Source: Candidatus Omnitrophota bacterium
GTDB taxonomy: Bacteria; Omnitrophota; Omnitrophia; Omnitrophales; JACQQS01
Length of the DNA stretch: 37,640 nt
Assembly (NCBI GenBank): GCA_016206925.1
Contig: JACQQS010000081.1
Coordinates: 1 to 37,640, forward strand
Direction of reading: 5' to 3'
Shown piece by piece: positions 2,998-28,582 of the stretch. The notes beneath the pieces are model-generated. The model was not told the DNA's origin and did no database searches. It worked only from the letters and a program-made list of their open reading frames with translations. The translations under genes and the position numbers were made by a program. Each line of letters begins with the position of its first letter. Position 1 is the stretch's first letter.

Positions 2998-4524
2998 ATG
3001 AATACGCCCGGTACTGATCAATTACGGGAAATCGAAAAATCCGGAAAGCGTGTGTGTATACAAACCTTCGGCTGTCAGATGAATGAGTATGACTCGGAGG
3101 TGGTGAAGGCGGCTCTTGAGAAGCAGGGGTATGTCCTCACCGATTCGGAAGAGGCGGCGGATGTGGTGATTCTCAATACCTGCAGCGTTCGTGAACATGC
3201 CGAGAATAAGGCGTTCAATAAACTGCACTTGCTCTGCCGTGAGAAAAAAAATGGCCGGCCGAATCTGACCGTTGGGCTCATGGGCTGCATGGCAGACAAT
3301 TACAAAGAGAAACTTCTCAAGGATTTTCCACAACTGGATTTTGTCGCGGGCACGCGGAATGTGATGGACGTGACAAGATTGGTAAAGGAGATTGAAGAGA
3401 AGCGTAGCCGAGGCGTCCCGCCCCGGAATGACTCAGCCGGGCAAGATGCCCAGCCTACGCGATTGGGATTGGCTCGCAATGGCACCCAGACCGTCATTGC
3501 GAGGAGCCCCGCAGGGGCGACGAAGCAATCTAAAAGCCTGCAATTGGCAGCAATAAGTAAAGAAGGGTGGTGGGAGGAATATGCCGAAACGGTGCCGAGG
3601 CGCGAGGGCGTGCGGGCGTTCCTTCCGATCATGACCGGCTGTGACAATCTCTGCACGTATTGTATTGTTCCGAAGACACGCGGCAGGGAAGTTTCCATGC
3701 GCGGCGGGGAAATTGTGGATCAGGTGAAGAAGCTGGCGGATCAGGGCTACAAGGAAATTCAACTCCTCGGGCAAAATGTGAATTCCTATGGCCGCCGTTA
3801 TGTGGGCGAGGATGAAAGCTATCGAACGCGCAAGGAGCCGAATCGTTTTCCCGAACTGGTCGCCGCCGTTAGCCAAGTTCCCGGAATAGAGCGCGTGAGC
3901 TGGATGACATCGCATCCCAAAGATGCTTCGCGGGAACTTTTCGAAGTCATGCGCGATTATCCCAAGGTGACGCATTGGTTCCATCTGCCCGTGCAGTCCG
4001 GGAACAATCGGATTCTCAAGAGAATGGGCCGGGAGTATACTATCGAAGAATTCCACGAGAAACTCGAGCTCCTGCGCAAGCTCGTCCCCGGCGCCGCCGT
4101 TTCGACCGACATGATCGTAGGCTTTTCGGATGAAACCGATGAGGAATTCGAAGAAACACGCCGCGTGATGGAAAAATTCATGTTCGACAGCGCCTTCATA
4201 TTCAAATATTCGCTTCGCAAAGGCACGCCGGCCGATCGTTTGCCGGATAATGTGCAGCAGGCTGTAAAAGAAGAAAGGCATCGGGTTTTGCTCAAACTCC
4301 AAAAGGAGGTTTCGCGCAAAGTAAATGACGCCTGGATCGGCAGACAGGCGGACGTTCTTTTCTCCGGGCGAAGCCGCGTGAGCGATCAGGATTTAATCGG
4401 TGAAATGCGAAATCACAAGCGAGTCGTCGTGAAAGCCCCGGCGGCGTTCATGGGTAACGTGAAACAAGTCCGCCTGACACGGCTTAAGGACGAGACATTT
4501 TATGGTGAGCTATGCGAAGTGTAA
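2998..4524 (+). CDS. miaB: MiaB, tRNA-2-methylthio-N6-dimethylallyladenosine synthase, with repeat-encoded insertion
   Basis: This radical-SAM methylthiotransferase adds a methylthio group to isopentenyl-A37 of tRNAs reading UNN codons. The N-terminal iron-sulfur cysteines are in QTFGCQMNEYDS (Cys26), LNTCSVRE (Cys62) and LMGCMAD (Cys97). The radical-SAM CxxxCxxC triad is Cys215, Cys219 and Cys222 (GCDNLCTYCIVP). The C-terminus (about 440-508) is the TRAM domain. At 508 residues it is roughly 55 longer than usual. The excess lies between the N-terminal and radical-SAM domains (about 135-180) and is encoded by two palindromic repeat elements (3402-3532) that keep the frame open. This linker is variable in the family, so activity is probably retained. 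The gene overlaps the next one by 13 bases. Confidence 0.95.
   Translation: MNTPGTDQLREIEKSGKRVCIQTFGCQMNEYDSEVVKAALEKQGYVLTDSEEAADVVILNTCSVREHAENKAFNKLHLLCREKKNGRPNLTVGLMGCMADNYKEKLLKDFPQLDFVAGTRNVMDVTRLVKEIEEKRSRGVPPRNDSAGQDAQPTRLGLARNGTQTVIARSPAGATKQSKSLQLAAISKEGWWEEYAETVPRREGVRAFLPIMTGCDNLCTYCIVPKTRGREVSMRGGEIVDQVKKLADQGYKEIQLLGQNVNSYGRRYVGEDESYRTRKEPNRFPELVAAVSQVPGIERVSWMTSHPKDASRELFEVMRDYPKVTHWFHLPVQSGNNRILKRMGREYTIEEFHEKLELLRKLVPGAAVSTDMIVGFSDETDEEFEETRRVMEKFMFDSAFIFKYSLRKGTPADRLPDNVQQAVKEERHRVLLKLQKEVSRKVNDAWIGRQADVLFSGRSRVSDQDLIGEMRNHKRVVVKAPAAFMGNVKQVRLTRLKDETFYGELCEV
3402..3532. repeat. Two palindromic repeat elements inserted in frame within miaB
   Basis: The first element, 3402-3460, has near-perfect ends GCGTAGCC / GCCTACGC and two inner GC hairpins (GGCGTCCCGCCCCGG; GGGCAAGATGCCC). 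The second, about 3461-3532, is built around CGTCATTGCGAG...GAAGCAATC with a GCCCCGCAGGGGC hairpin. Related sequences occur at 4533-4571 and, in opposite orientation, at 28473-28582. Confidence 0.8.
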
Positions 4525-5339
4525 CAAGGATTGAGATTGCTTTGCCCCCTGCAGGGGCTCGCAATGACAAGATATTTACAGTTATCCTTGTTTTGTGCGT
4601 GCTTAATTTGCTTATCGCCGCGCCGGAAGCCGGCGCGAAAAACAGTCCTTATGTCGAAACGATCCGGCAATTTTTCCTAAAAGGGGAGTATGACCGCGTT
4701 ATCGAACAGATGCCAACGCTCAATCTAGACGAAAACAGCAGCGAAATGATGGAAGGCCTTTATTTCGTCGGGGTAAGCCTTATTAAAGTCGGCCGGTATG
4801 CCGACGGACGCGATGTCCTTTCGCGCATTGCCCAGCGCAAGCCCAAAATTAAATTCCGCGACCAGGTGGAACTCAGAATTGCAGACGCATTCCTTGCTGA
4901 AAGTGCGCTCAATATTGCGCTTAAGCGGTATCAGAATGTGATGACGGCGTATCCGGATTCATCCGGTCTTGCGCGCGCCTATGAGCAGAGCGCTTTGATT
5001 TGCCAGCGCCTCGGTCAGTTTGAACAAGCCCAGAGCTATTTTAAACTGCTTCAGATGAACTGCCCTTTGAGCTTTGAAGCCGCAAATCTCCGCCGCGGAA
5101 TTACGGAAAGGATTAGCCATTTCGGCGTACAGATGGGTACTTTCGCGAATCTCTTCAATGCCGAGCATCTCAAGACCGAGCTTGAGACAAAAGGTTTCCA
5201 GCCGTACGTTCAAACCGTCCGGGAAGACGCGGAGCCGCTTTACCGCGTTCTGATCGGCGAATTCGCTTCGAAACAGGAAGCGGAAACCGCGGCCCAGAAT
5301 TTGGAGTCCCTGGGTTACCCCGCCCAGGTCTATCCCTGA
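4512..5339 (+). CDS. Exported TPR protein with C-terminal SPOR domain
   Basis: This 275-residue protein is probably exported. A hydrophobic segment, IFTVILVLCVLNLLIA, at about residues 21-37 is followed by a possible cleavage after AGA. Residues 45-200 are helical with TPR-like spacing (for example the segments around DRVIEQMPTLNLDENS and RLGQFEQAQSYFKLLQ). Residues 203-275 are a SPOR domain (FGVQMGTFANLFNAEHLK... YRVLIGEFASKQEAETAAQNL), a peptidoglycan-binding fold that recognises glycan strands lacking stem peptides. A role in cell-wall assembly or division is the reasonable inference. Residues 8-20 are encoded by a palindromic repeat (4533-4571), so the start and the charged region before the signal helix may be an acquired addition. 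No better start is visible between the repeat and the hydrophobic segment. It is followed two bases later by nnrE. Confidence 0.8.
   Translation: MRSVTRIEIALPPAGARNDKIFTVILVLCVLNLLIAAPEAGAKNSPYVETIRQFFLKGEYDRVIEQMPTLNLDENSSEMMEGLYFVGVSLIKVGRYADGRDVLSRIAQRKPKIKFRDQVELRIADAFLAESALNIALKRYQNVMTAYPDSSGLARAYEQSALICQRLGQFEQAQSYFKLLQMNCPLSFEAANLRRGITERISHFGVQMGTFANLFNAEHLKTELETKGFQPYVQTVREDAEPLYRVLIGEFASKQEAETAAQNLESLGYPAQVYP
4533..4571. repeat. Palindromic repeat at the N-terminus of the SPOR-protein gene
   Basis: The element runs GAGATTGCTTTGCCCCCTGC / AGGGGCTCGCAATGACAAG and is the reverse complement type of the second element in miaB (CGTCATTGCGAG...GAAGCAATC). The central CCCCTGCAGGGG is a perfect palindrome. 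Confidence 0.75.
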
Positions 5340-28472: not shown

Positions 28473-28582
28473 ACCGTCATTGCTAGGCAAAGATGTAGGC
28501 GGGGCATCTTGCCCCGCAGAATTAATCCGGGGCGAGACGCCCCGGCTACGCGTCGCGCCTTCGGCGCTCCTCGCAATGACAC
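28473..28582. repeat. Composite nested palindromic repeat between punA and ileS
   Basis: The outer arms CCGTCATTGC (28474-28483) and GCAATGACAC enclose an inner element (about 28495-28552) with ends GTAGGC / GGCTAC and two hairpins, GGGGCATCTTGCCCC and CCGGGGCGAGACGCCCCGG. The inner element matches 3402-3460 of miaB in opposite orientation. It may form RNA hairpins but has no U-run. Confidence 0.8.

Follow-up and report, generated by a model that had tools for sequence, protein, structure and literature searches.

Two superfamilies of REPs, distinguished by a GTAG or a CGTC tag, were described by Di Nocera et al. 2013 (PMC3733652). The GTAG-tagged superfamily comprises families GTAG-1 to -24, which occur in high copy, often as head-to-head dimers, and are RAYT-associated (PMC3733652). 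Members of the CGTC superfamily carry a CGTC (or TGTC, CCTC) tag, a complementary stem of 8–9 bp that starts with AT, a loop of 4–5 and a CCA tail; Rickettsia conorii RPE-6 and RPE-4 correspond to CGTC-1 and CGTC-4 (PMC3733652). Repeats of both kinds have also been reported within genes in several species (many genes of Opitutus terrae, Thauera, Rickettsia conorii and others), and in two species 43–82 residues are encoded by inserts that consist of clustered repeats (PMC3733652).

Here we describe a related case in a genome of an uncultured phylum, probably Omnitrophota since the MiaB of a same-phylum genome (L038) shares 94% identity with its counterpart in ‘Candidatus Omnitrophica bacterium 4484_213’ (L040). 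The window, which is the whole stretch of DNA analysed, is 37,640 nt long and contains the tRNA-modifying gene miaB (Table 1). We are confident that palindromic repeats were inserted in frame into the linker of this gene, that they now encode 44 extra, mostly disordered residues, and that the enzyme tolerates them.

THE INSERT IN MIAB

The miaB ORF scores 421.5 bits against the MiaB family model TIGR01574 (cut-off 355.3) and has Pfam domains UPF0004 at residues 18–118 and Radical_SAM at residues 210–389. Cluster cysteines 26, 62, 97, 215, 219 and 222 are all kept, and these are invariant over 110 sequences, gaps aside. An AlphaFold model (38 sequences) has a mean pLDDT of 84.9, and the best Foldseek matches of the predicted structure are the MiaB structures 7mjz, 7mjx and 7mjw. 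In cysteines, family score and fold the enzyme is thus otherwise intact, as the preliminary description held.

An alignment was made with 109 homologues, of which 29 come from genomes belonging to its order, class or phylum. From position 113 to position 214 the protein has 102 residues, against 56–64 in 107 of the 109; the outliers are one partial sequence with 25 and a same-order MiaB (L010, G036:C45) with 79. The preliminary description had estimated about 45 extra residues between the N-terminal Fe-S and radical-SAM domains; the alignment gives a net excess of 44, and no homologue has an equally long linker. The insert is absent from all 109, although we infer the empty miaB site at the protein level only, the nearest relatives compared being of the same order and ~47% identical. 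Its GC content is 64%, compared with 52% in the remainder of miaB, and no clear target-site duplication was found beside it. L010 has, read by eye, a 21-residue insert at the same linker that is unlike the repeats, and this unrelated insert suggests that the inter-domain linker of MiaB is a permissive site. In the AlphaFold model pLDDT falls below 50 at residues 144–165 and 169–190, while the flanking domain blocks mostly lie at 80–98.

The insertion might instead be neutral, in a gene that is decaying or inactive: insertions are commoner in dispensable genes, and many of the other matches in this genome fall in giant proteins for which Pfam gives few hits or none. This we judge improbable, given that the miaB frame is full length with its motifs all intact, that no other protein in the assembly (86% complete) exceeds the TIGR01574 cut-off, and that MiaA is encoded in the same assembly. 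As the sole MiaB found in a genome that also encodes MiaA, the enzyme with its insert is probably functional. The simplest reading is a working MiaB, whose activity we infer, with its linker extended by a disordered stretch.

Table 1. Features of the miaB locus and of repeat copies elsewhere in the window
Feature	Position	Strand	Details
miaB	2998..4524	+	508 aa; tRNA-2-methylthio-N6-isopentenyladenosine synthase
Net insert	3403..3534 (best placement)	+	132 nt = residues 136-179; in the linker joining UPF0004 to Radical SAM
GTAG-tagged head-to-head REP dimer	3402..3460	+	GTAG 3404-3407, CTAC 3455-3458; translated RSRGVPPRNDSAGQDAQPTR; alignment A1, n=18 copies; model R1 73.5 bits
Degenerate reversed CGTC-type arm	3461..3483	-	minus strand reads gCCATTGCGAGCC / CATTGCGAG; junction type as in L123, L127, L138
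CGTC-tagged REP	3492..3532	+	translated VIARSPAGATKQSK; model R2 62.1 bits, genome's best; CGTC tag
SPOR/TPR protein ORF	4512-5339		Pfam SPOR; overlaps miaB end; begins MRSVTRIEIALPPAGARNDK
Further CGTC repeat	4529..4568	-	read as IEIALPPAGARND near start of next ORF 4512-5339; model R2 E=1.8e-8
Intergenic composite copy	28477..28580	-	two CGTC-type arms enclosing a GTAG dimer

COMPOSITION OF THE INSERT

Attribution of the insert to two adjacent palindromic elements, as first proposed, was nearly right; three pieces are visible. The first begins GCGTAG and ends CTACGC and contains two GC-rich hairpins, with the pattern CGTAGCC...GCCTACG in the 18-copy alignment. Judged by its unpaired terminal GTAG followed by a short palindrome, and by its occurrence as multicopy dimers, it belongs to the GTAG-tagged REP superfamily. 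The second piece probably represents a composite's right-hand arm. The third appears to fit the CGTC superfamily by tag and stem start, with differences of detail in stem and tail: among 44 copies of the genome's CGTC family, 38 have CGTC (25) or TGTC (13) before ATTGCGAG, and the ATTGC/GCAAT ends fit the AT stem start, but the stem is longer and interrupted and the tail is mostly CTC. The repeats of the insert occur in the genome in excess of chance; a search with 171 bases around it found 36 places at E<=0.001. The further CGTC repeat downstream of miaB may encode the n-region of the signal peptide of the SPOR/TPR protein.

CGTC-type arms lie on both flanks in 5 of 27 GTAG dimers. The exact junctions AAGA-ACGTAGCC and CCTACGY-GATCGTCG are common to L131, L137, L129, L136 and L147, small differences aside, and the identity of junctions among several copies suggests that whole composites spread as units. 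On its right side the miaB insert has a junction like that in three other copies (Table 1). Repeats within repeats are also seen inside genes (L162:1929-1978 and L165:1478-1527; also L135, L141, L142, L157 and L158), and GTAG dimers within open ORFs hold or adjoin a CCCGCGAAAGCGGG-type repeat and a GCTTGGCCGAGCGGCGGTCGG repeat.

REPEATS ACROSS THE GENOME

The 2.01 Mb assembly was surveyed by searches and by reading the stretches around matches. Model R1 (GTAG dimer) matched 29 places and model R2 (CGTC arm) 31, both at E<0.001. The survey for other in-frame insertions that had been proposed at the outset shows recurrence: 21 sites lie well inside 19 long ORFs (miaB and about 18 others), with the remaining copies at ORF starts, at ORF ends or between genes. 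These sites were picked for lying in open ORFs, so that the rate of gene-breaking insertions is not fairly readable from the counts.

Recognisable families with internal repeats include MacB, polysaccharide deacetylase, UbiE, phosphoglucose isomerase (PGI), MGMT, a DUF3485 protein and a PcRGLX-like protein; many other repeat-bearing ORFs are the giant proteins mentioned above. MacB (L146:49-2298, minus strand) has 85 residues between ATPase and permease compared with 18 in 5lil, and this excess of 67 consists of three CGTC repeats. The polysaccharide deacetylase has gained about 30 residues relative to solved homologues, and UbiE only about 11. UbiD is doubtful as an insertion case, with no clear length gain over E. 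coli UbiD. At gene starts, the CGTC-repeat end GCAATGAC seems to give the downstream ATG (L123:1429-1980; L127, L133, L139, L147 and L151): YqgF starts MTQILGIDYGTKRIGLA, and five other genes start MT followed by a signal-peptide-like stretch.

This recurrence in about 19 ORFs also bears on whether the repeat was misplaced within miaB during assembly, as short-read metagenome bins can misjoin at repeats. Such a misjoin would link unrelated flanks; here the two flanks of the insert join up, in the correct frame, as successive halves of a single gene, and we regard an artefact as most improbable.

Among 57 relatives the GTAG dimer has matches only in G004, at two places, which points to its expansion in this lineage. 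The CGTC repeat is found in 37 of 58 genomes (this one included), patchily across the phylum, with none to about 100 copies each. Genes with Y1_Tnp occur in 45 of the 58 genomes. In the 86%-complete assembly a standard RAYT transposase was not found, only one divergent Y1_Tnp match: this sole Y1_Tnp-like protein (L152:577-1929; 450 aa; E=3e-6) is encoded about 2 kb from a GTAG dimer on C83. It has a repeat-derived N-terminus and a hydrophobic segment and is possibly a domesticated relative.

READING FRAMES

The preliminary description had noted that the intergenic copy shares the open peptide frame of the miaB insert, and had suggested that the element family lacks stops in that particular frame. 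The minus strand of the intergenic copy does read VIARSAEGATRSRGVSPRINSAGQDAPPT, yet this copy is open in four of the six frames. For GTAG dimers generally, about 3.8 of six frames are open against 3.6 in dinucleotide shuffles, and for CGTC arms 4.6 against 4.6. Open frames being no commoner than in the shuffles, the lack of stops reflects base composition, and the idea of one stop-free frame is not borne out.

The GTAG tag always gives TAG in one frame per strand. A bias of frame or orientation, raised as a question at the outset, is absent from CGTC repeats inside genes, which use both orientations and all five non-stop phases. The GTAG dimer may prefer the RSRG frame inside genes: all seven internal copies with an intact GTAG are in it (probability about 0.016 if two open frames were used equally), in a small sample whose copies are not all independent.

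The frames also bear on whether the insert is DNA or RNA only, with hairpins that the ribosome skips or that are cut out of the RNA, so that MiaB is of normal length. Mitochondrial bypass elements provide a model for skipping, and the hairpins of the insert are strong (RNA fold -59.8 kcal/mol, z -2.6). Bypass would work without an open frame and with an insert of any length, however, and among the internal copies (at sites chosen within open ORFs) the frame that holds TAG in the GTAG dimer and the one that holds TGA in the reversed CGTC repeat are never used; nor did incidental reading show a gene that an element had evidently broken into two parts. We give this explanation very little credence.

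PROPOSED ORIGIN

An in-frame insertion that is now translated would account for the locus by the following order of events. Non-autonomous repeats, a GTAG-tagged REP dimer and CGTC-tagged REPs, some of them perhaps mobile as nested composites, would have inserted into the inter-domain linker of miaB. One or more events would have added bases in a multiple of three, the GC-rich repeats being stop-free in the resulting frame, so that the gene would now encode 44 extra residues where the N-terminal cluster domain joins the radical-SAM domain, an insert that the enzyme presumably tolerates. The same process has probably acted at about 20 other places in the genome, and where a needed gene took an insertion that was out of frame or carried a stop, selection presumably removed it.

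More speculatively, and in our view rather unlikely, nested repeats of this lineage, in which CGTC arms surround a GTAG dimer that has itself taken in further repeats, could serve as raw material for protein-coding linkers. Inside proteins the dimer would be kept preferentially in one frame (RSRGVxPR...AGQDAxPTR) as a hydrophilic disordered peptide that is tolerated or useful, and the linkers of conserved enzymes would be steadily lengthened.

COMPARISON WITH KNOWN SYSTEMS

We found no literature linking MiaB to palindromic elements and nothing relevant on palindromic repeats in Omnitrophota. As intragenic REPs have already been reported in several species (PMC3733652), the phenomenon is less novel than first suggested, a new case of a kind already met in Rickettsia and a handful of other bacteria. 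The parallel drawn with the Rickettsia palindromic elements, in another lineage, holds: by tag and stem start the CGTC half appears to fall in the superfamily of RPE-4 and RPE-6. With the present case, apparently tolerated in-frame insertion of palindromic repeats is seen in the genome of an uncultured phylum, with both tag superfamilies combined in one insert and many conserved enzymes affected. In effect it is a series of linker-insertion experiments done by nature, and it allows a test for a preferred reading frame in such repeats.

Like GTAG-tagged REPs and BIMEs (PMC3733652; PMC8266576), for which intragenic cases of 20–30 aa are already known, the dimers described here have a GTAG head then a hairpin and lie head to head; unlike them, they come without a flanking RAYT gene that we could find. 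The resemblance to CGTC-tagged REPs, RPE-4 and RPE-6 among them, lies in the CGTC/TGTC tag, the AT stem start, the mostly inverted dimers and the many in-frame ORF copies, whereas here the tail is mostly CTC rather than CCA, the inner hairpin is often longer, a nested GTAG dimer is often carried and the phylum is another. Rickettsia RPE-1 is described as a longer palindrome; RPE-1 and similar protein-coding palindromes (PMC10969869; Ogata 2002 via PMC3733652), like the repeats described here, form in-frame inserts in unrelated proteins and are apparently tolerated.
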